DNA of 64,000 nt from a virus: IMG/VR virus record IMGVR_UViG_3300008107_008672, positions 1-64,000 of that record; one strand, given 5' to 3'. Positions 2-62,552 of the stretch are shown here, one piece after another. Within the stretch, counting starts at the first letter, position 1, and every line of letters begins with the position of its first letter. The position numbers and the translations under genes are program-made. The notes beneath the pieces were generated by a model. That model made no database searches. It was not told where the DNA came from and saw nothing but the letters and a program-made list of their open reading frames with translations.

Positions 2-190
2 GGTGTAGTAAAAGAAACTGGTAAAAAAATAATAGAAGTAGATAGCAAATATTTTAGACCATCTGAGGTTGATTTATTAATAGGAGATGCTAGCGATGCT
101 AAAAAAGTATTAGGGTGGGAACCAAAACTTTCTCTTTCTCATATAATAGATGAAATGATAGAAGATAAAATAAAATCCTATGGATTATAA
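2..190 (+). CDS. gmd: GDP-mannose 4,6-dehydratase, C-terminal fragment (5' end outside window)
   Basis: Only the last 62 codons are inside the window; the reading frame is open from base 2 to a TAA at 188-190. The residues YFRPSEVDLLIGDASDAKK followed by LGWEP are the typical C-terminal signature of GDP-mannose 4,6-dehydratases of the extended SDR family. These enzymes convert GDP-mannose to GDP-4-keto-6-deoxymannose, a precursor of fucose, rhamnose and perosamine in surface glycans. The stop overlaps the ATG of the next gene (180) by 11 bases, so it belongs to the same transcription unit as the following sugar genes. The Rossmann domain and catalytic YxxxK lie upstream and cannot be checked. 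A related NDP-sugar epimerase/dehydratase is the main alternative. Confidence 0.75.
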   Translation, partial: GVVKETGKKIIEVDSKYFRPSEVDLLIGDASDAKKVLGWEPKLSLSHIIDEMIEDKIKSYGL

Positions 191-755
191 ATTATTGATA
201 GAGAAAGAGATAGAAGCTCTAAAAAAAATACCAATACAGAGGATAACTAATTTAGTTTCTCAGATAAGAAGGTATATCGGACATGGAAGAATAATAACTT
301 CTGGTATGGGAAAAGCTGGACACATCGCACATACCTTTGCTACTACTTTATCCTCAACGGGAACACCTTCTTTTTTCTTGCATCCATCTGAAGCCCAGCA
401 CGGGGATTTGGGAATAGTTCAACCAGGTGACATAATTATAGTTTTTAGTAATTCTGGTAAAACTAGAGAGGTTTTAGAACTTATTGATCTTGTACATAAT
501 TTAGAGTATGGTAATTACATATATGCTATAGTCGGAACCAAAACCGAAGATATCTCTATAAAATGTGCAGACTATATTGAATTTGGTCCTGTTGAGGAGA
601 TATGTCCTATGGGATTAACTCCAACAACTTCTACAACTTGTATGTCTGTGATATCCGATTTAATAGTTATTGGATTAATGGATAAGAATTTTACCAAAAA
701 AGAATACTCAAAATTACATCATGGAGGATATCTCGGTCAAAGATCAAAAAACTAG
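180..755 (+). CDS. kdsD: SIS-domain sugar isomerase, probable D-arabinose 5-phosphate isomerase (KdsD/KpsF/GutQ type)
   Basis: The 191-residue protein is a single SIS domain. The phosphosugar-binding loop SGMGKAGHIA is at residues 41-50, SEAQHGDLG follows at about residues 69-77, and a serine-rich FSNSGKT loop sits near residue 90. This combination is that of arabinose-5-phosphate isomerases, which interconvert ribulose 5-phosphate and arabinose 5-phosphate, the first committed step to Kdo. Bacterial KdsD is about 320 residues with two C-terminal CBS domains. Those are absent here, leaving a minimal catalytic form. The gene overlaps gmd upstream and kdsA downstream by 35 bases. The downstream Kdo-8-phosphate synthase uses exactly the product expected here, which strongly supports the assignment over a generic SIS protein. 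Confidence 0.85.
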   Translation: MDYKLLIEKEIEALKKIPIQRITNLVSQIRRYIGHGRIITSGMGKAGHIAHTFATTLSSTGTPSFFLHPSEAQHGDLGIVQPGDIIIVFSNSGKTREVLELIDLVHNLEYGNYIYAIVGTKTEDISIKCADYIEFGPVEEICPMGLTPTTSTTCMSVISDLIVIGLMDKNFTKKEYSKLHHGGYLGQRSKN

Positions 756-1524
756 AATTCTTATAGGAGGTCCTTGCGTTATACAAAGCTGGGACACTTG
801 CTTTGAGATTGCTACTGAAGTTAGGAGATGTGGATTACTACATAACTATCATACTATATTTAAAGCGAGTTTTGATAAAGCCAATAGAACATCATCAGGG
901 GGATTTAGAGGAATTGGTATAGATAAAGGTCTAGAAATTTTAAAAAAAATAAATTCTAGATTAAATATGCAGATAATAACAGATGTACACGAGACACATC
1001 ATGTTGAAAAAGTAGCTTCTGTTGTTGATTATTTACAGATACCTGCTTTCCTTTGTAGACAAACTGATTTAATAGAAGAATGTGCTAAAACAGGTCTACC
1101 CGTACTTATTAAAAAGGGACAATTTCTTTCCCCTGAATCTTGTAAATTTATAGAAGACAAATTTTATAAATCGGGAGGGAAGGAGCTATTAATAGGAGAA
1201 AGAGGTAATAGCTTTGGTTACAATGATTTAATAGTAGATGCCACTTCTATATCAAGATTAAAGAAATCGTGTACAAGATCTAAAATAATAATGGATTGTA
1301 CACACAGTTTACAGAGGCCTAATGGTATTAGCGGAAAAACTGAAGGTAGAGGAGATCTGATAGAGGATATGGTTAGATTTGGTGCAGTAATGGATGCGGA
1401 TGGATTGTTTATAGAAACACATCCCTATCCACATCTTTCTCCATCTGACTCCGAAAATATGCTAGAACTTTCAAATCTAGAAAGTATAATAGGTAAAGCT
1501 AGAAAGATTTATGATGCAAGATAA
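721..1524 (+). CDS. kdsA: 3-deoxy-D-manno-octulosonate 8-phosphate synthase (KdsA)
   Basis: The 267-residue protein has the full length of KdsA, a TIM-barrel of the DAHP synthase class I family that condenses phosphoenolpyruvate with arabinose 5-phosphate to Kdo-8-phosphate. Visible motifs are GGPCVIQS at residues 16-23, the substrate-binding KASFDKANRTS at 48-58, ITDVHE near 80, KKGQF in the middle, and IETHPYP near the C terminus. Cys19 in GGPC is the position of the metal ligand in metal-dependent KdsA (Asn in the E. coli metal-independent class), so this is probably the metal-dependent type. The start overlaps the end of the isomerase. The ATG at 721 gives the correct N-terminal spacing to GGPC. 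Confidence 0.93.
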   Translation: MEDISVKDQKTRILIGGPCVIQSWDTCFEIATEVRRCGLLHNYHTIFKASFDKANRTSSGGFRGIGIDKGLEILKKINSRLNMQIITDVHETHHVEKVASVVDYLQIPAFLCRQTDLIEECAKTGLPVLIKKGQFLSPESCKFIEDKFYKSGGKELLIGERGNSFGYNDLIVDATSISRLKKSCTRSKIIMDCTHSLQRPNGISGKTEGRGDLIEDMVRFGAVMDADGLFIETHPYPHLSPSDSENMLELSNLESIIGKARKIYDAR

Positions 1525-54731: not shown

Positions 54732-55337
54732 ATGAATAGGATTAAAAACTTTAAGGAATTTTCATCCATTAACGAAGCGGAAGATGAGAGTCTTTTTTTC
54801 AGAAGACATTTAGGAAACAATGCTTCCAGTTATGATGATAGAGCTAAAAACCATTATGAATTGGGGGATAATCCAACTGTATTGGCTAAGACTAGAAACT
54901 TTTTCCAAAAAATGGAAGATAGAATAAACAGAGCAGCAGAGATAGGTAAGGCAAAGGTAAGACAAAACAGAGCTACTAGAACTCACGGAGGACCTGATAC
55001 TGGTGTAGAGATCCTTTTTGGAGCTCTTTCTGTTGTACCTAACGTTTTAAAAAGAGTATTTGCTCCAACTAAATATGAGTTTAGTAAAAAAGCGCCATCG
55101 GAAGAAACTGTTGATATTGAATTTATGAGACACACAAATGAGGATTTTGCTAATAATGAGCTTCCTAATATAAAAACTGAAGATCAATTAGCAGATCATG
55201 TTGGAGATCTTTATAATAGAGGTGAGGTAAGAATGGGAGAAGTCCCTGTGTTAGATGATATTGTTAGAAATAGAGTTAACATATATTATCAAAACCAAGC
55301 AAATCCTAATAATCCTATATTACAACCAAATAATTAA
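54732..55337 (+). CDS. Small protein with capsid-targeting-like N terminus
   Basis: The ATG at 54732 gives MNRIKNFKEFSSINEAED. The (K/R)-x-x-F-x-x-F ... I-x-E-A pattern resembles T4 internal-protein capsid-targeting sequences (for example T4 IPIII, whose leader ends in an I/L-x-E site cut by the prohead protease gp21). The rest is 170 residues: basic helix (EDRINRAAEIGKAKVRQNRA), a hydrophobic stretch (VEILFGALSVVPNVLKRVF), and an acidic end. The capsid-internal role is inference. There are 36 bases of AT-rich leader after uvsW. Confidence 0.55.
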   Translation: MNRIKNFKEFSSINEAEDESLFFRRHLGNNASSYDDRAKNHYELGDNPTVLAKTRNFFQKMEDRINRAAEIGKAKVRQNRATRTHGGPDTGVEILFGALSVVPNVLKRVFAPTKYEFSKKAPSEETVDIEFMRHTNEDFANNELPNIKTEDQLADHVGDLYNRGEVRMGEVPVLDDIVRNRVNIYYQNQANPNNPILQPNN

Positions 55338-55344
55338 TAAAAAA

Positions 55345-56208
55345 ATGAAAAAATTCTCTTTAATAGTAGAAAAAAAGAAACAAGAGTTAAAAGAAAACCA
55401 AACGGTAAATGAGAGAAATCTTTATTTAGATTTTTCTAAAAAATACCATAAGAAAAATGGTGTATCTGGACCTTTTGATAAAAAATTCCAAGGTGATAAG
55501 AAAGCTCAGCAAAAATACATGGACGGACTTTCTAAAGCTTGGGAAGATCACAAGAAAAAAAATGGTATAAAGCCAAAGTCTAGCAGCTCTAAATTTGATT
55601 TCGCTAAGAAAAAAATGAACGAATCAAAGGCGGTAGAAATGGCTAAAAACATGATTGGTGATGGTGGAGATCCTAATTATCATTTCGTTACTATGTGTGA
55701 TGACTATTACTTTGAAAAAGGAGAGGATATGGTAAGATATAGTAAGGATATGGAATCTTCCCCTCTAAAAATTAAAACAACACCAGATTTCGGAGCTTAT
55801 ACTTTCGGACCATTTGCAAATATTGAGGAATCAAAAATGTTTGCTGCAAGTATAGAATTGGACGAGATAAACGGACCAAGAATGATAACTATCGAGGACA
55901 GAAAAAATGGTGAAGTTTATTCTAAATTCTTAACTTGTAAAATGCAACCAGTATGGAATGAGATCGAAGAGGAAGAAGAACATCACTCAGAGGAGGAAGA
56001 TGAAGAGGATGAAGATCCTAATTCTGAATACACATACGGAGAAGAGACTGAGGATGATTATGATAACTCAGAACATGACGAGGATGATGACGAAGAGGAT
56101 GACGAAGAAGGAGGAGAGTATTATGCTAATTTCGGCCCTGAAGATCAAGAGGGTGCAGGTATAAATACAGAAGAAGACGAAGAAGACGAAGAAGACGACG
56201 AGGAATAA
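55345..56208 (+). CDS. Highly acidic protein with capsid-targeting-like N terminus
   Basis: The ATG at 55345 gives a 287-residue protein. It begins MKKFSLIVEKKKQELK, again with an F...I-x-E pattern, followed by a charged globular region (DFSKKYHKKNGVSGPFDKKF). After about residue 205 it is extremely acidic: nearly all Asp/Glu with Tyr/Gly/His interruptions to the end, about 80 residues. Acidic, partly disordered proteins are typical of phage internal, core or DNA-mimicking proteins; nothing allows choosing among these. In the DNA the tail is GA-rich (55970-56205) and could cause assembly or slippage problems. Confidence 0.55.
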   Translation: MKKFSLIVEKKKQELKENQTVNERNLYLDFSKKYHKKNGVSGPFDKKFQGDKKAQQKYMDGLSKAWEDHKKKNGIKPKSSSSKFDFAKKKMNESKAVEMAKNMIGDGGDPNYHFVTMCDDYYFEKGEDMVRYSKDMESSPLKIKTTPDFGAYTFGPFANIEESKMFAASIELDEINGPRMITIEDRKNGEVYSKFLTCKMQPVWNEIEEEEEHHSEEEDEEDEDPNSEYTYGEETEDDYDNSEHDEDDDEEDDEEGGEYYANFGPEDQEGAGINTEEDEEDEEDDEE

Positions 56209-56213
56209 TAAAC

Positions 56214-56657
56214 ATGTTAAATCCGATACAAAACCAAGCTCTTTATCCTGTGCTTCAACACTATACTGGATGTAAGATATCTTCTATATCCCCTGATGGT
56301 GATGTGTTAACATTCAGGACTTTTATGGGGGATCTTGGTATAGTTAGTGAGGATATGGAGGGTAACTGGAATATAACTATAGGAGAGGAGGAGATTTACA
56401 AAATTGAGAGGGATATATTCAATGTATTAATAAAGCCTAATAGTAAATCATCATTGGAAGATTATATAGAGATATTAAACGAGTTAACTAATAGCCCGGA
56501 GGTTAGCTATAGATCTAAAATTTTGGTTTCTAATATACTTATATTTTTACAAGAATATATATTAAACTCTGATTTCCTACCTAAGAAAAATATAAAAGTT
56601 GGTATATTTTCAGTTTCAAATCTAAAGGGTAAAAAATTCATTAACTGTTTAAACTAA
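56214..56657 (+). CDS. Hypothetical protein
   Basis: The 147-residue protein is unrecognised. It starts MLNPIQNQALYPVLQHYTG, has an alpha/beta N-terminal half and a leucine-rich helical second half (SYRSKILVSNILIFLQEYIL). Its stop overlaps the next start (TAATG), so the following large fusion gene is translationally coupled to it. Confidence 0.5.
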   Translation: MLNPIQNQALYPVLQHYTGCKISSISPDGDVLTFRTFMGDLGIVSEDMEGNWNITIGEEEIYKIERDIFNVLIKPNSKSSLEDYIEILNELTNSPEVSYRSKILVSNILIFLQEYILNSDFLPKKNIKVGIFSVSNLKGKKFINCLN

Positions 56658-58663
56658 TGGCAGGTATAAAATACTTATCGGACATATACGAAAAAAAAGG
56701 AAAATCTTTTATTGAGAGCCTTTTTAATAAGGACGTAACCGTAACGGAGAATCTTGATGGTTCTTCATTCTCTTTTGAAAGAGATTTTACTGGAGACAAC
56801 ATATCTTTTTACAAAAAAGATCAGGATAATCCTATAACTAGAGTTGATAGGATATTAATGAAATATTACGAGAAGCCTATAAATTATATAGAGGCACTTC
56901 CTGATGAAATAAAAAGCCAAATACCTAAAGGATGGAGATTCGGTATGGCTTATTTTCCTTCAACAAAACCGGTAAGAATAGAATATGATAGAATACCAAA
57001 AAATCATTTGATATTAACTCATATAATATCAAGAGATGAATTTGGTGACGTTATTAAAAATATACAGGATAAGGAAGAGCTTGATGAATGGGCAGATAAA
57101 CTAGGAGTTGAAAGATCTCCTGTAATATTCCAGGGAAAATTAAATAGAGATCAGAAAATATCAATAATGGATTTCTTATCCACTCCATTGATGGATCTTA
57201 AAAGCAAATTTAAAACCGAGAGTTTTACTAAATATATAGTTTCTATTTTAAACAGAAATCTAGAAAAAACAACTCTGGGAAATGATTTAAGAGGAAGCAT
57301 AGATTCTTTAGTTTTTAGATTTGAATCTGATGACGAGGAAGAGGTGGTTCTAGCAAAAATGGTAGACCCTATATTTTACGAAATAAATAGGGAAAGAAAA
57401 GTAACCAAGTCTTCATATTTTCCTAGTGATGTTTATTCTCTATGTTTAATAGACGTTATGAATATGATACTGGAGGATGGGATAGAAAGCTTTTCTTCAG
57501 AGGGAGAAGATCCAGAGGAGAGGTATATAAATTTCGTTTTTTCAGTATTTAAGAAATTCATATACGAAGACGGGGAAAAATATGTTGGTGCAGATTTCGA
57601 GAAACCTGAATATTTAAAATCTGAGGGATTTGAAATAAACAAAGATATAATTAATGATTCTGAGGTAATAAAATATCTGGAAGATGATGAGATTTATATT
57701 GATATACTTCAAATGATATTAAACTCATTTAGAAAACTAAAAAGAAAACCACACGGATTTTTTACTGAAGGACTTATAGAGCAGTTCAATATGCTCGTTG
57801 AGGATATAGCTTCTCATATAAATGCAAAGAGAAAAGAAATAGTTGAAGAATCTTTAGGGCTACCATCATTTGTTTGGTTTAAAAAAGTTGGTAGGAGATT
57901 CAGCATAGAGGTTAATGAGGAGGAAGAAATTGAGGAATATTTAGAATCATTAGAAGATAAAAACGAATCCACTGTATCAGAGTCAATAAACGAAAGTTCT
58001 CAAGCAGAAATAGAAGAAAAAAAAGAGGACGATGCTTCTGAGTTTTTCTCTTTTAAAGATTTTAAAAAAGTAGTAGCAACTCATAAGGAGAAAAAAAAGA
58101 TTAAGATACTTAATGAAAATAATCAGAAAGTAAATTTAGTGATAGGAAAATTTCAGCCATTTAATAATGGGCATCTTAAAATGTGCTCGAGATTAAAGAA
58201 AGAAAATAATCTTCCCGTTTTTCTTTGTGTAGTTCATCCAGGTGGAAGTCAAAGCTTAAAATATCCTTTCAGCGAGGATCTTATAAGAAAATCTATAGGA
58301 TCTCTAACATCAGAGAATAATAATCTTTTTCATGGATATGAAATAATACCATCAGATCTTTTAGAGGATGCAATAAATTCTGTGGTTAAGCATGCTAATC
58401 CGGTTTCAGTTTGTATAGGTGAGAGGGATTTCAAAAACATGGTTTTACAAAGAGAATGGGTTAGAGACAAATATGATCTAGAGGGAGGAGATATAGAAAT
58501 ATACAAAACCCCTCAATGGGCAAACAATAAAGATATTAGAGATTATGTAATAAAAGGTGACTTTCAAGAATTTAAAAGTAAAGTACCTAAATCTATAGCA
58601 GTTTTATTTGGCGAGTTTACTAAACAACTTAAGGATAAAGAGGGGGAAGAGGATATATATTAA
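56657..58663 (+). CDS. Degenerate ATP-dependent ligase-fold domain fused to NMN/nicotinate adenylyltransferase-like domain
   Basis: The 668-residue protein has two domains. The N-terminal half has the order of RNA-ligase/mRNA-capping nucleotidyltransferases. Motif I reads VTENLDGSSFSFE, where the KxDG lysine is Asn. The motif III position reads FGMAYFP, where Glu would be expected. Motif IV reads IDSLVFRF and motif V AKMVDP. So the nucleotidyl-accepting lysine is missing. After an acidic linker (about residues 420-465) comes a HIGH-type adenylyltransferase domain (LVIGKFQPFNNGHLKM with the GH of the H/T-x-G-H motif, and NNKDIRDYVIKGD at the C-terminal substrate loop), as in NMN adenylyltransferases. 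The C-terminal half could act in NAD metabolism; the N-terminal half probably binds rather than ligates. Confidence 0.7.
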   Translation: MAGIKYLSDIYEKKGKSFIESLFNKDVTVTENLDGSSFSFERDFTGDNISFYKKDQDNPITRVDRILMKYYEKPINYIEALPDEIKSQIPKGWRFGMAYFPSTKPVRIEYDRIPKNHLILTHIISRDEFGDVIKNIQDKEELDEWADKLGVERSPVIFQGKLNRDQKISIMDFLSTPLMDLKSKFKTESFTKYIVSILNRNLEKTTLGNDLRGSIDSLVFRFESDDEEEVVLAKMVDPIFYEINRERKVTKSSYFPSDVYSLCLIDVMNMILEDGIESFSSEGEDPEERYINFVFSVFKKFIYEDGEKYVGADFEKPEYLKSEGFEINKDIINDSEVIKYLEDDEIYIDILQMILNSFRKLKRKPHGFFTEGLIEQFNMLVEDIASHINAKRKEIVEESLGLPSFVWFKKVGRRFSIEVNEEEEIEEYLESLEDKNESTVSESINESSQAEIEEKKEDDASEFFSFKDFKKVVATHKEKKKIKILNENNQKVNLVIGKFQPFNNGHLKMCSRLKKENNLPVFLCVVHPGGSQSLKYPFSEDLIRKSIGSLTSENNNLFHGYEIIPSDLLEDAINSVVKHANPVSVCIGERDFKNMVLQREWVRDKYDLEGGDIEIYKTPQWANNKDIRDYVIKGDFQEFKSKVPKSIAVLFGEFTKQLKDKEGEEDIY

Positions 58664-58681
58664 AAAAGATTCCTTCTTTTT

Positions 58682-58951
58682 ATGAAGAAATACAGCCATA
58701 TAAAGGACAATAGCAATAAATACGATCTATCCAATAGTAAGAGGCTGTTAGAGGAAGCTATGGACAAAATAAGATCCGTTAGAGAAGAGTTTTCTAAGAT
58801 GGAGGATATTGATATAGATGAGCTGGAGGAAGGATGGAATCTTATAGATAAATACTATGGTAATATTGTTAGAGGAGAGATATACAAAAAGAAAAAGAAA
58901 GTATACATCCCTAATACATCCGCAGTTTTTCCAAAAAAAGGAGATAGTTAA
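58682..58951 (+). CDS. Small helical protein, hypothetical
   Basis: The 89-residue protein is highly charged and predicted helical (SKRLLEEAMDKIRSVREEFS), ending in a lysine-rich segment and PNTSAVFPKKG. It is preceded by an AT-rich 18-base gap that includes a weak AAAAAGA/TCTTTTT hairpin. Its function is unknown. Confidence 0.5.
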   Translation: MKKYSHIKDNSNKYDLSNSKRLLEEAMDKIRSVREEFSKMEDIDIDELEEGWNLIDKYYGNIVRGEIYKKKKKVYIPNTSAVFPKKGDS

Positions 58952-58954
58952 GTT

Positions 58955-59491
58955 ATGAGATATATTAAATTATTTGAGCAGTTTTTATTAGAAGAAGATG
59001 GATTCGGAAGGGACTTTTTTGTTAAGAAGAAGGACGGAAAAGTTTCTAAATACTTTTTTAAAATAGAGGGAGAGGAAGAGACCCTAGGTTTTATTATAAA
59101 TATTGGTAAACTTTCCAGAGGATCATCAATAGACGAAGCAGAAAATAGCTATGCTGTTATATCTGCTGAACCTATAAGAGTTAGTACACTTGATGACTAT
59201 TTAGTTAATGAAACTGACTATAAATCAAGAGAGGATGAAGAATTTTCCCTCACTAAATCTGAATTTATGAGATTCTATAAAATATTAAGTGAATCCATAA
59301 AAGACTATCTACAGAATAATCCTAAGGTTTCTAAAATGTATGATGAGATACCTCTTAACTTGGATATGGAACTTTCTGAATACCAGGATAGGGTAGAATC
59401 ATTAATGGATGAATGGAGCTACGAAAAATGGAGTGTACAAGATGGTTCTTCCGAAAGAACACTTATGTATACTAGAAGGGATCATGACTAA
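58955..59491 (+). CDS. Protein with capsid-targeting-like N terminus, hypothetical
   Basis: The 178-residue protein starts MRYIKLFEQFLLEEDGFG. The F-x-x-F-L-L-E pattern matches the other capsid-targeting-like N termini in this block, with a potential LLE cleavage site. The remainder is alpha/beta (FFKIEGEEETLGFIINIG and YAVISAEPIRVSTLDDYLV) with no recognised fold. It overlaps the next gene by 8 bases. The prohead location is inference from the N terminus alone. Confidence 0.55.
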   Translation: MRYIKLFEQFLLEEDGFGRDFFVKKKDGKVSKYFFKIEGEEETLGFIINIGKLSRGSSIDEAENSYAVISAEPIRVSTLDDYLVNETDYKSREDEEFSLTKSEFMRFYKILSESIKDYLQNNPKVSKMYDEIPLNLDMELSEYQDRVESLMDEWSYEKWSVQDGSSERTLMYTRRDHD

Positions 59492-59801
59492 TAAGATACT
59501 TTCATATAATGAATTTATAAACGAATCTAGAATTGCAATAGCTTGGGCAAAACCTTCTAGATCTACTATTTCTGTTTTACAGTTCATATCAGAAAAAGAA
59601 AAAGTTACCAAAAAAGAATTAATGGAATTCTTGGAAGGTATGGAAGAAGATTCATCAGGAAAAAAACCATCGATGAGATGGGTAAGTAATCAAAAAAAAT
59701 ACATAAAGTATAAAGTTCAAGAGGAAGATGCTAATTACTATCATTTAACCCCCCTTGGAAATAGAGTATTAAAGGCATCTATACTGGAGGAATCCAAATA
59801 A
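59484..59801 (+). CDS. Winged-helix-like small protein with capsid-targeting-like N terminus
   Basis: I chose the ATG at 59484 because it overlaps the upstream stop by 8 bases; the frame is also open upstream, but only inside the previous gene. The 105-residue product starts MTNKILSYNEFINESRIAIA, a close match to the T4-type Y-x-E-F-I-x-E element with a predicted I-N-E cut. After it, STISVLQFISEKEKVTKKEL, then MRWVSNQKKYIKYK and YYHLTPLGNRVLKA have the helix-turn-helix/wing logic (xLTPLGxxVL is common at the end of winged helices). A DNA-binding internal protein is one possibility. Confidence 0.55.
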   Translation: MTNKILSYNEFINESRIAIAWAKPSRSTISVLQFISEKEKVTKKELMEFLEGMEEDSSGKKPSMRWVSNQKKYIKYKVQEEDANYYHLTPLGNRVLKASILEESK

Positions 59802-59869
59802 ATTGCTTAAAAACGTGCTTAAATGAAACATTTTATTAATTTTACAGTAAAATAGTAAAACAATATAAA

Positions 59870-60049
59870 ATGGAAAATTACGAAAAAATCAAGGAATTGG
59901 TAGAAAGCATGTCTAAAGACATCGAAGCTTTTTACGTTAAAGGTAACAAGTCTGCTGGTACACGTGTAAGAACAGCTTGTCAAGATCTTAAAAAATTATC
60001 TCAAGATCTAAGAGTTAATGTTCAAGAAACTAAAAACACAAAAGCCTAA
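59870..60049 (+). CDS. Histone H1-like protein (Hc1 type)
   Basis: This is a 59-residue ORF read directly: ATG at 59870, TAA at 60047-60049. It begins MENYEKIKELVESMSKDIEA; the core FYVKGNKSAGTRVRTACQDL, then KKLSQDLRVNVQETKN matches the Hc1-like family. In that family a conserved KGNKxAGTRxR element is followed by a helical DNA-binding tail; the proteins are small, basic and common in Bacteroidota. A DNA-compaction role for the packaged or replicating phage genome is plausible. Ile codons are ATC. A 68-base leader with two GCTTAAA direct repeats (59806, 59817) precedes it. Confidence 0.8.
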   Translation: MENYEKIKELVESMSKDIEAFYVKGNKSAGTRVRTACQDLKKLSQDLRVNVQETKNTKA

Positions 60050-60054
60050 TCTTT

Positions 60055-60285
60055 ATGAGTTATTATATTTGTAAAGTTAGCTTTTTTACCGGAGAGGTAT
60101 CTAAAAGTACTGGTAAGGCTAAAGCATCTAAATCTGAGATATTAGTAGAAGCTGAAAGTGTAACTGATGCAGAAGCAACACTCCATAAGCATTTAGCTGG
60201 AGATAATTCGACTTCTCATTTAGATTTTGAAGTTACTGCAGTAGCTCAGTCTAAAATCGAGTCTGTAGTACAGATCAGAGGATAA
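60055..60285 (+). CDS. DUF4494-like small protein
   Basis: The 76-residue protein starts MSYYICKVSFFTGEVSKSTG. The order is W/Y-x-x-K-V strand, Lys-rich turn, EILVEAESVTDAEATLHKHL helix and DFEVTAVAQSKIESVV strand. It resembles the DUF4494 family (function unknown), frequent in Bacteroidota and their phages. It begins 5 bases after the histone-like gene, so the two share a transcript that ends at the strong terminator following at 60303. Confidence 0.6.
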   Translation: MSYYICKVSFFTGEVSKSTGKAKASKSEILVEAESVTDAEATLHKHLAGDNSTSHLDFEVTAVAQSKIESVVQIRG

Positions 60286-60302
60286 TAAAAATTCTTTTAT
60301 TT

Positions 60303-60338
60303 AATCCCGGTAGATATATAATTTACCGGGATTTTTTT
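60303..60338 (+). terminator. Strong rho-independent terminator
   Basis: A perfect 9-bp GC-containing stem, ATCCCGGTA (60304-60312) and TACCGGGAT (60324-60332), with an 11-base AT loop, is followed by a seven-T tract. It ends the histone/DUF4494-like transcript. It is the clearest intrinsic terminator in the window. Confidence 0.9.
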
Positions 60339-60359
60339 ATCCCATTAATAATAGATCTA

Positions 60360-60721
60360 ATGGAAAAAGATAGAAAAAAAAATTCTGCAGAAACCAGCTC
60401 ATATGAGCCACCAGTTTCATGGGACAGGCTTACGGAGTTCGTAAGTGGATGGATACCGGGGGAAAAGAAGGATTAAATCCAAGAAGAATAGATTCAGCAT
60501 ACAGAGAAACTATTGTTGAGCTTGCAAATAATATGAAAAAAAAATCCCTTAAAGATTTTGCTGGGACTAAACATAAAAATATACCAGAAGAAGTTGAAGA
60601 AGGAAAAATACCAACAATAATTCCATATCTTAATCCTGAATCAAATTTACCAAAGAAGAGTAAAAGTAAAAAGATGCAAAATCTTTCTGATTACAGGGAG
60701 TTTATAGGTAAAAAGAAATAA
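60360..60721 (+). CDS. Small protein, frame-interrupted
   Basis: An ATG at 60360 gives MEKDRKKNSAETSSYEPPVS followed by WDRLTEFVSGWIPG and then a premature TAA at 60474 in that frame. The minus-one frame continues fluently as GKEGLNPRRIDSAYRET to 60721 (the same frame can formally start at 60419, but that start would add codons such as CGT not otherwise favoured here). A lost G in the GGGGG run near 60465 would join them into one protein of about 120 residues. The product is unrecognised: a lysine-rich linker then DYREFIGKKK at the end. Confidence 0.5.
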
Positions 60722-60730
60722 ATTATAAAT

Positions 60731-61198
60731 ATGAGTGAAGATTGCGGATGTGGATCAACCACAGATAACATTAGAGACTACAATTCACATAGATCTAACA
60801 AATATGATCAGGATCCTCTAGTAGGTAAAAGAGTATCATTAATAGATGGAAGAAGCGGAAGAGTTGACGACTCTATTAGAAATAGTGTTGGTGAAGTTAT
60901 TGGATATGTTATAGAGGGTGAGAGAGGAATGTATAGGGTATTCAAAGATAAGATAGCAGGAGATATGGACGAGGGTGGGGGAGCAATGGCTTCTCTAGCA
61001 GGAACACCAGGAATGGGTAATGTTGTTCCTCCTGGACCGGGAAAGTTTGGATCTGGCGATCAGTTTCCTAGTTTAACCGTAGGAACTCCCGCTGCCAAAA
61101 AGAAAAAGAAAAAGGTATCAAAAGAAAATCCTAGTCCAATAAGTAATTCATTAATGAGCTTTAAAACATTTATGAAGAATACTAAATCTAACCAGTAG
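60731..61198 (+). CDS. Small Gly-rich protein with KOW/SH3-like segment, hypothetical
   Basis: The 155-residue protein starts MSEDCGCGSTTDN. Residues about 30-75 contain VGKRVSLIDGRSGRVDDSI and IGYVIEGERGMYRVF, reminiscent of small SH3-like barrels. It continues with a Gly/Pro-rich linker and a basic tail (PAAKKKKKKVSKEN) that ends SLMSFKTFMKNTK, echoing the F-x-x-F element of its neighbours at the C terminus instead. Its function is unknown. Confidence 0.5.
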   Translation: MSEDCGCGSTTDNIRDYNSHRSNKYDQDPLVGKRVSLIDGRSGRVDDSIRNSVGEVIGYVIEGERGMYRVFKDKIAGDMDEGGGAMASLAGTPGMGNVVPPGPGKFGSGDQFPSLTVGTPAAKKKKKKVSKENPSPISNSLMSFKTFMKNTKSNQ

Positions 61199-61222
61199 AT
61201 TATATTTTTAAAAATAGTAGAA

Positions 61223-61252
61223 CTAAGGCTATAATTTATTAATTTAGCTTAG
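61223..61252 (+). promoter_or_regulatory. Imperfect hairpin abutting the glycosylase GTG start
   Basis: CTAAG-g-CTA (61223-61231) pairs with TAG-CTTAG (61245-61252) with one bulged G and an AT-rich loop containing AATT/AATT complementarity. The 3' stem ends on the first base of the GTG start. No U-tract follows. It could lower translation initiation. Confidence 0.35.
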
Positions 61253-61638
61253 TGGAAAAAATTAATATAATACAAGAGGAATACTCTAACGATCCTTGGA
61301 AAGTTCTAGTTTGCTGTATATTACTAAATCAAACTAGCAATAAACAGGTAAGACCTTTAATACAAGATTTTTTTAAGAAGTGGCCAAATCCTAAATCTTT
61401 ATTGTTAGAAGAGGATTCGGCCATTTCTTATTTTATAAGGACTACAGGATTTCAAAACGTAAAAGCCAAGAGGATAAAAGATTTTTCTTTATCTTGGGAT
61501 TCTGGTATTAGAGATCCTTTTAAATTTCCAGGTATAGGTGATTACGGTAGGGAAGCTTGGAGAATATTTGTTCAGAATGATATTTCTTTTACCCCAAACG
61601 ACAAAAAGCTTAAAATGTATTTAGAATCGATTCGGTAA
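61252..61638 (+). CDS. HhH-GPD DNA glycosylase, MBD4-like (thymine/uracil mismatch type)
   Basis: The 128-residue protein has the complete HhH-GPD glycosylase core. CCILLNQTSNKQVRPLI resembles the ILLNxTS segment of MBD4. FPGIGDYGREAWRIF (residues 92-106) is the helix-hairpin-helix with G-I-G, and TPNDKKLKMYL (114-124) carries the catalytic aspartate Asp117. The lysine found in the hairpin of bifunctional glycosylases is absent, as in MBD4, so it should be monofunctional. MBD4-type enzymes excise thymine or uracil opposite guanine. There is no MBD domain. It starts with GTG. Confidence 0.8.
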   Translation: MEKINIIQEEYSNDPWKVLVCCILLNQTSNKQVRPLIQDFFKKWPNPKSLLLEEDSAISYFIRTTGFQNVKAKRIKDFSLSWDSGIRDPFKFPGIGDYGREAWRIFVQNDISFTPNDKKLKMYLESIR

Positions 61639-61648
61639 TATATACTAC

Positions 61649-62233
61649 ATGAATCATTTACTTAACTTTAATCAGCTTTTTGAAAAACTACAGATGGTTA
61701 CTTCAAACTGGTCTATTATAAGTAACGAGAGTTCTTTTGAAAAAAAGGAAGATAACGGATATTTAGTTTTTAGTAAGGAAGGAACATTTTCTATTATATA
61801 CAAAAAGAAATCAGTACAGGAAGAATCCCGAATGGATTTTTATTCTAAGAAAGAAAATTCAACGGATAAAAAATCTATATGCGAATGTAAGATTACAACA
61901 TCTTCCGGAATGGATAGAGTAAAAACAGGGTTTCCCGATATAAACGAAAAAAATATATGGGAGATAATAGCATTATTTTTTGATTACTCAGATATTGACA
62001 AGGCTAAGGAAAATTCGTACGATATTTTTTTAATGGGATTTTCTAAGTCCATAAAGGAAGTACAGAATAGTGAAGAAAAAGATCAGCTTGCACCTAGTTT
62101 TATTATTTTCTGTAAGTGTCTAAAAGATGCTGTAAAAAGATCAGGAGAACCTAATATTCCGAGTAAGCATTATAATTTAAAAAATGCAGTTAAAAAATTC
62201 GTGGATAATTTTAAGGATAATAAAAAATATTAG
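61649..62233 (+). CDS. Hypothetical protein with capsid-targeting-like N terminus
   Basis: The 194-residue protein starts MNHLLNFNQLFEKLQMVTSN, with the aromatic/leucine F-x-x-L-F-E element. It continues with strands FEKKEDNGYLVFSKEGTFSI and a helical acidic and lysine-rich second half (KAKENSYDIFLMGFSKSIKE). It is unrecognised. It lies 10 bases after the glycosylase and ends 10 bases from the convergent minus-strand gene. Confidence 0.5.
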   Translation: MNHLLNFNQLFEKLQMVTSNWSIISNESSFEKKEDNGYLVFSKEGTFSIIYKKKSVQEESRMDFYSKKENSTDKKSICECKITTSSGMDRVKTGFPDINEKNIWEIIALFFDYSDIDKAKENSYDIFLMGFSKSIKEVQNSEEKDQLAPSFIIFCKCLKDAVKRSGEPNIPSKHYNLKNAVKKFVDNFKDNKKY

Positions 62234-62243
62234 ATTATAAGGA

Positions 62244-62552
62244 TCATTTGGATTCCTCCATTCTTTTAAGCTGATTTAAATAGTCACCCCAAACTAGACC
62301 CCCCTCTTTAATAGATGATTTTTTAGATTTATGTAATTCAGCTCTTTTTGACATTATGTATGAAGCTATTATCGCATCTTTTAATTCTATTTCTTTTTTA
62401 TCAAGCATTTCTTGAATTTTCCTTATAGACTTTAAAGCTTCGTCCCTATTCGAAAATCTTAGCCCCCTGGCATATTTTTTTTCTTTGCTAAAAGGGTTTA
62501 TATCATTTAGATAAACCTGCTCGAATAATTTAAAGGTTAGAATTTTTTTCAC
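62244..62552 (-). CDS. Small minus-strand protein with capsid-targeting-like N terminus
   Basis: The 102-residue protein starts from a GTG (immediately preceded by an in-frame TAG, so this is the only possible start). It begins MKKILTFKLFEQVYLND, another F-x-L-F-E element. The rest is a charged helical protein (RDEALKSIRKIQEMLDKKEI). It is one of only two minus-strand genes in the window, convergent with the previous gene and divergent from the DNA polymerase. Capsid location is inference from the N terminus. Confidence 0.55.
   Translation of the reverse strand: MKKILTFKLFEQVYLNDINPFSKEKKYARGLRFSNRDEALKSIRKIQEMLDKKEIELKDAIIASYIMSKRAELHKSKKSSIKEGGLVWGDYLNQLKRMEESK

Follow-up and report, generated by a model that had tools for sequence, protein, structure and literature searches.

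The internal proteins IPI, IPII and IPIII of phage T4 consist of unrelated bodies, each preceded by a short N-terminal peptide that is processed by the gp21 protease. In IPIII, the first ten residues (MKTYQEFIAE) suffice for packaging, with mutations assigning residues 4 and 7 (Tyr and Phe) to targeting and residues 8 and 10 (Ile and Glu) to processing, gp21 cutting after L/I-x-E (PMC9026906). Other phages offer comparable cases: the T4 ADP-ribosyltransferase Alt is a head-packaged, injected enzyme also cut by gp21 (PMC9026906), and phiKZ, SPN3US and 201phi2-1 have large sets of head proteins, their ejection proteins among them, whose propeptides are cleaved behind a Glu residue by a divergent protease of the gp21 type (PMC9026906). 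Here we analyse a 64,000-nucleotide stretch of the IMG/VR virus record IMGVR_UViG_3300008107_008672 (positions 1 to 64,000; hereafter, the window), which covers 64.0 kb of a viral fragment 68.8 kb long; the tail, baseplate, and replication genes of this fragment are T4-like. Five of its genes begin with a common short leader. We consider it very likely, with a probability of roughly 0.86, that these leaders are T4-type prohead-targeting propeptides (capsid-targeting sequences) removed by a gp21-like protease, and the five tagged proteins are probably carried inside the virus particle.

To avoid circularity, the window genes were kept out of the training of the position-specific matrix used to detect the leader, which was built from 51 leaders, some belonging to capsid-gene loci on other contigs and the rest to LR756500, an uncultured huge phage of 462 kb. 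The top five among the 61 open reading frames of the window were 54732, 58955, 59484, 61649, and, on the minus strand, 62552 (composition-shuffle p = 0.0002, 0.0002, 0.0002, 0.0004, and 0.015, respectively), and none of the genes in the half of the window that encodes tail and baseplate reached such scores. A strict regular expression applied to the window alone gave only three matches, since the last two leaders do not have the standard site, and was replaced by the trained matrix. The refined consensus, located near the start codon, is [ILVM]-x-x-[FYW]-x-x-[FL]-x(0-3)-[ILVF]-x-E-[SAND]; the aromatic/Phe spacing [FYW]-x-x-[FL] is present in all five leaders, which end, in the above order, in INE|A, LLE|E, INE|S, LFE|K, and LFE|Q. 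The I/L-x-E protease site that a previous sequence-only reading had placed at the end of the leader was thereby recovered, as was its observation that the protein bodies are unrelated, given that they have no Pfam family in common. That reading had counted six genes, of which these five were retained but 55345 was rejected (p = 0.23), its start (MKKFSLIVE|K) departing from the very consensus that had been proposed for the group.

The best match is the leader MNRIKNFKEFSSINE of gene 54732 (54732..54776, plus strand; score 26.0), with a predicted cut after E15 (INE|A). Its residues M1, I4, F10, N14, and E15 are invariant in eight orthologues, down to 46% identity, despite a variable spacing ahead of N-E. 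This gene, present on nine IMG/VR fragments, encodes a mostly helical protein of 201 amino acids without any Pfam match or known family (54732..55337, plus strand), for which the structure model is of low confidence (predicted local distance difference test score, pLDDT, of 56) and shows the first 30 residues as disordered. The leader of 58955, MRYIKLFEQFLLE (58955..58993, plus strand; score 24.2), is followed by E, is conserved in 7 orthologues, and reads FLNE|D in them; it heads a protein of 178 amino acids (58955..59491, plus strand) without significant Pfam match and with a model (pLDDT 54) too poor for fold assignment. Fold matches obtained with the 54732 and 58955 models (template modelling score about 0.35) were dismissed as meaningless. 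In 59484, the leader MTNKILSYNEFINE (59484..59525, plus strand; score 23.4), with a predicted cut INE|S, is conserved in 5 orthologues and precedes a protein of 105 amino acids (59484..59801, plus strand) with a possible winged helix, as hinted by a sub-threshold DUF6293_C match (E = 0.0014). The two remaining proteins also lack significant Pfam matches: the 194-amino-acid protein of 61649 (61649..62233, plus strand) starts with MNHLLNFNQLFE (61649..61684, plus strand; score 13.2; possible cut LFE|K; MNHLFTFQELYEK in its orthologue), and the 102-amino-acid protein of 62552 (62244..62552, minus strand) starts with MKKILTFKLFE from a GTG codon (62520..62552, minus strand; possible cut LFE|Q), conserved in orthologues but, with a score of 8.7, the weakest of the five.

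The comparison with T4 proposed in the sequence-only reading held when we used two matrices trained without T4 sequences. One of them, derived from 28 LR756500 leaders alone, placed IPII, IPIII, gene 61.1, and IPI at ranks 1-4 of the 271 T4 open reading frames, and the one based on the 51 leaders ranked IPII and IPIII first, with IPI tenth. The residues critical in T4 are kept in the leaders, namely the aromatic residue, the Phe three residues on, and [IL]-x-E, as in the T4 internal-protein leader MKTYQEFIAE|A. There are also differences: an extra hydrophobic residue is found three positions ahead of the core, a place filled by Met1 in T4; the leader end is typically [ILV]-N-E|[SA]; leader-bearing proteins are far more numerous (about 30 in LR756500); and some copies are C-terminal and have no cut site. 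No Pfam match of the window proteins names IPI, IPII, IPIII, or Alt, although no direct pairwise comparison was run, and the Alt leader is not among the scoring T4 matches. T4 gene 61.1 (L180:18966-19130), third of the 271 with both matrices, begins MKTFKEFIKED; we found no discussion of it in the literature, and its product is a candidate for an unrecognised packaged protein. The other systems are more distant. Cuts in phiKZ follow S/A-x-E with few other determinants, and no shared hydrophobic-aromatic-Phe leader has been described there (PMC9026906). In phage PAU, which infects Sphingobacterium, MKT[LI]xxLYEA is found on 14 of 62 open reading frames, over ~40 kb around the portal, protease, scaffold, and capsid genes (L186, L219), and two of the genes carrying it are annotated as internal capsid proteins. 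This dialect, however, is PAU's own: none of the other genomes scanned showed it, and we found no paper describing this leader family.

A gp21 protease was not found in the window. The nearest complete phage according to the UvsW helicase is LR756500 (41% identity), after which come further huge phages and the Lak phages of Prevotella, and since the contig has no head genes, the link between the window and the protease rests on relatives. Matches to PF03420 (gp21; some of them below the curated cut-off) and PF07068 (gp23) were detected in LR756500, Lak-B5, PTm1, and three other huge phages, and 80 capsid-gene loci were collected. The aligned major capsid proteins of the clade have [LIV]-x-E|[SND] at the end of their N-terminal domain, where cleavage is expected (HNLNE|SVYNTVHLNP and variants), a site kept even with insertions ahead of it (GMVNE|S, SLITE|S). 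The PAU capsid protein offers an experimental reference, as N-terminal sequencing showed that its 585 residues are shortened to a 520-amino-acid mature form (PMC5646251); the matching site LME64|N65 would leave 521 residues, within one residue of the sequenced cut. In the protease-scaffold fusion proteins, [ILVM]-x-E closes the protease part (mostly as RVNES[FY]G) and recurs close to the C terminus (mostly as INESK), each time in 71/71 sequences, and the scaffold itself contains many further sites, a series of the form L/V-A-E. The typical leader end (INE, LNE, or VNE, then S or A) is the same motif as that of the capsid and scaffold sites. A comparison of the leaders with the phage's own head proteins, suggested in the sequence-only reading, was in this way possible in relatives, where capsid protein and protease-scaffold provided the match.

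Two counts reinforce this link. When N-terminal cores were chosen without regard to the site, [ILV]xE[SANGD] followed 16/57 of them in LR756500 and 8/20 in the 130-kb relative G006, versus 2.7% and 1.1%, respectively, for internal cores. Across the 80 loci, leader genes occupy 59/398 of the positions located -4 to +2 genes from the capsid gene versus 5/658 elsewhere, counts that include related contigs and so are not independent, albeit with different families involved, and that were obtained with a matrix partly trained on these genes, by motif and not by position. In phage MA9V-1, genes beginning MKNFFSFINEA and MKTFTCFINEA adjoin the portal and protease genes. In the clade of the window, the leader cluster sits between uvsW and the DNA polymerase gene, and four contigs with a cluster at this same uvsW-linked place (G011, G014, G030, and G032) also carry the capsid gene. 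The uvsW gene of another relative (L009:7167-9947) seems interrupted by extra open reading frames resembling an intein or homing insertion.

Genes with a matrix score of at least 12 form sizeable repertoires in the relatives: 31/698 genes in LR756500 (462 kb), 15/167 in G006, including a run of about nine at 24.8-37 kb, 9/92 in G005, and 5/40 in G008. By the same measure, the Bacteroides phage crAss001, which has a different head type and served as control, has 0/109. The Pfam domains of the tagged proteins of relatives always begin downstream of the leader and comprise OmpA, MoxR-type AAA ATPase, DUF2201 metallopeptidase with a VWA-like domain, polynucleotide 3' phosphatase, R2K ATP-grasp, and leucine-rich repeats. 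The tagged DUF2201 metallopeptidase and MoxR-type ATPase belong to a three-gene block inside the cluster of L004, L006, L007, and L009, between the homologues of 56657 and 58682; the window, L003, and L005 lack this block. In G006 (7/7 versus 10/74 other genes) and LR756500, leader genes are enriched for a TATATA box in the 50 bases upstream, which suggests separately transcribed leader-gene cassettes. This box is rarely seen before the capsid gene; lacking enrichment there, it was dropped as a link to late promoters, and we therefore claim no timing for the leader genes.

Several neighbouring genes of the window carry variants of the element or copies of it at other positions. Two doubtful variants, at best a shorter version of the leader, are MKKFSLIVE in the rejected gene 55345 (55345..55371, plus strand), where MKK[FY]S..VE is conserved in 8 orthologues, and MKKYSHIKD (58682..58708, plus strand; p = 0.11), absent from the sequence-only reading, conserved in orthologues and reading MKKFSEIKE in relatives. 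A DUF3008-like protein (60419-60721) contains a copy of the element core, NLSDYREFI, without cut site at its C-terminal end (60680..60706, plus strand), conserved in 5 orthologues; this end is NLSDYREFI or nearly so in 5/5 members of the family, and the LR756500 member ends in LKFIKTFNEF (score 20.8), in the dialect of that phage. The DUF3008-like gene itself seems shortened at its start by a deletion that fused the region with a small upstream open reading frame (60340-60721), whereas relatives keep MPAVSRTQQRLMGQAYG. The adjacent protein 60731 (60731-61198) also bears a C-terminal copy, SLMSFKTFM, after a lysine-rich linker (61148..61174, plus strand), which is conserved in 6 orthologues but below the matrix threshold. 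Over the whole genome there is no general excess of C-terminal copies, which are convincing only in the DUF3008-like family and in 60731. An internal copy, FFSFKDF (58043..58063, plus strand), invariant in 7 orthologues, lies in a linker of the 668-amino-acid protein 56657-58663; by eye, the N-terminal part of this protein is ligase-like, and it has a sub-threshold cytidylyltransferase-like match.

Protein 60731 has in addition a signature similar to the capsid-protein N-arm, GMGNVVPPGPGKFGSGD (61010..61060, plus strand), with the pattern GMG...P...GSGD. This pattern matches 56/2975 proteins, against 0.05 per 1800 proteins in shuffles, and its carriers are capsid proteins, 60731 and its orthologues, one DUF3008-like protein of LR756500, and one PTm1 head-region protein. 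A hidden Markov model of the capsid N-arm detects the LR756500 DUF3008-like protein (E = 1.3e-10) and a PTm1 gene located between portal and protease (E = 8.4e-10; L075:16794-17627, corresponding to PTm1 216794-217627) but misses 60731 itself, which is picked up by the pattern alone. The 60731 protein probably touches the capsid, and the C-terminal copies look like an uncut form of the same docking element on capsid-touching proteins.

The reading of the leaders as prohead-targeting propeptides, already advanced in the sequence-only reading and supported here even if the underlying observation was only partly confirmed, draws on the leader shared by the five genes, its match to T4, its placement by head genes in relatives, and a motif that recurs in the scaffold and the capsid protein. 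While the head is being assembled, the precursor would dock on the prohead scaffold through the amphipathic core of its leader (hydrophobic-x-x-aromatic-x-x-Phe); the gp21-like protease would then cut after [ILV]-x-E at the leader end and release the body into the head interior, and the body may later be delivered along with the DNA. Any gene gaining a tag of 12-16 residues could in this manner become head cargo, which would explain why the tagged bodies are unrelated. Several points weigh against this interpretation. The 68.8-kb contig has no capsid, protease, or scaffold genes; cleavage is less sure at 61649 and 62552 because LFE|K and LFE|Q differ from the preferred INE|S; no clear leader of this type was seen in the Tenacibaculum phage PTm1, although it possesses the protease and the capsid protein; several of the tagged enzymes of relatives need not be head cargo; and we found no virion proteomics for this clade.

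The most serious alternative shares the packaging step and differs in the fate of the proteins, which would be core or structural parts of the prohead, like T4 gp67, gp68, and gp22, kept in the head or digested instead of being injected as effectors. We consider it the less probable outcome, but one with a substantial chance of being right. The five bodies are well conserved in relatives (46-89% identity for 54732), unlike fast-changing effectors, and their neighbour 60731 bears the N-arm-like signature, so that there is room for core or structural roles; moreover, the head operon of relatives holds leader genes. On the other hand, a structural function fits poorly with the enzymatic or regulatory domains tagged in relatives (AAA/MoxR ATPase, DUF2201 metallopeptidase, polynucleotide 3' phosphatase, ATP-grasp, and leucine-rich repeats) and with repertoires that differ between close relatives. 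It is improbable that the element is a docking motif for some other phage structure or machine, such as the tail, a replication factory, or the host membrane, whose likeness to the T4 leader would be no more than superficial, since the T4 internal proteins were recovered by a blind matrix, leader genes are enriched beside capsid and protease genes, and the protease-site motif is shared, even if C-terminal and internal copies have no cut site and the cluster in the clade of the window adjoins uvsW and not the capsid gene. A nucleotide-level effect, due to an A-rich translation start or recently copied DNA without peptide function, is hardly credible despite the AT-rich genomes and the N termini rich in Lys and Ile, because composition-keeping shuffles fail to reproduce the leader, orthologues retain its residues through indels, and synonymous codons vary at genome-like ratios (in the LR756500 leaders, Ile4 is ATA 13 times and ATT 11 times, and Tyr7 is TAT 24 times and TAC 4 times). 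From this codon variation, selection acts on the leader peptide and the DNA itself is not what is conserved.

What is new in the propeptide reading is the size of the repertoire, the lineage dialects, the C-terminal copies, and the presence of the neighbour 60731 resembling the capsid N-arm. The chances seem to us evenly balanced for a broader proposal, namely that the capsid-targeting sequence has turned into a general code for loading cargo across a large clade of T4-like phages whose hosts are probably Bacteroidetes. Dozens of unrelated proteins (leucine-rich repeat proteins, metallopeptidase/MoxR pairs, nucleic-acid repair enzymes) would be loaded in one head via a lineage-specific dialect evolving with the phage's own protease-scaffold, some cargo would be anchored by uncleavable C-terminal copies, and in one class the tag would be combined with a copied capsid N-arm. 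Familiar from three small proteins of T4, the leader motif could serve as a rule for picking out, among the hundreds of uncharacterised proteins that huge phages encode, those carried in the particle, which would be the first to encounter host defences, and leader dialects could serve to load chosen proteins into different phage heads. At the other end of the window (180-1524), two adjacent genes encode, as judged by eye only, proteins resembling a sugar-phosphate isomerase and a KDO-8-phosphate synthase, a pair that would fit synthesis of a lipopolysaccharide sugar by the phage.

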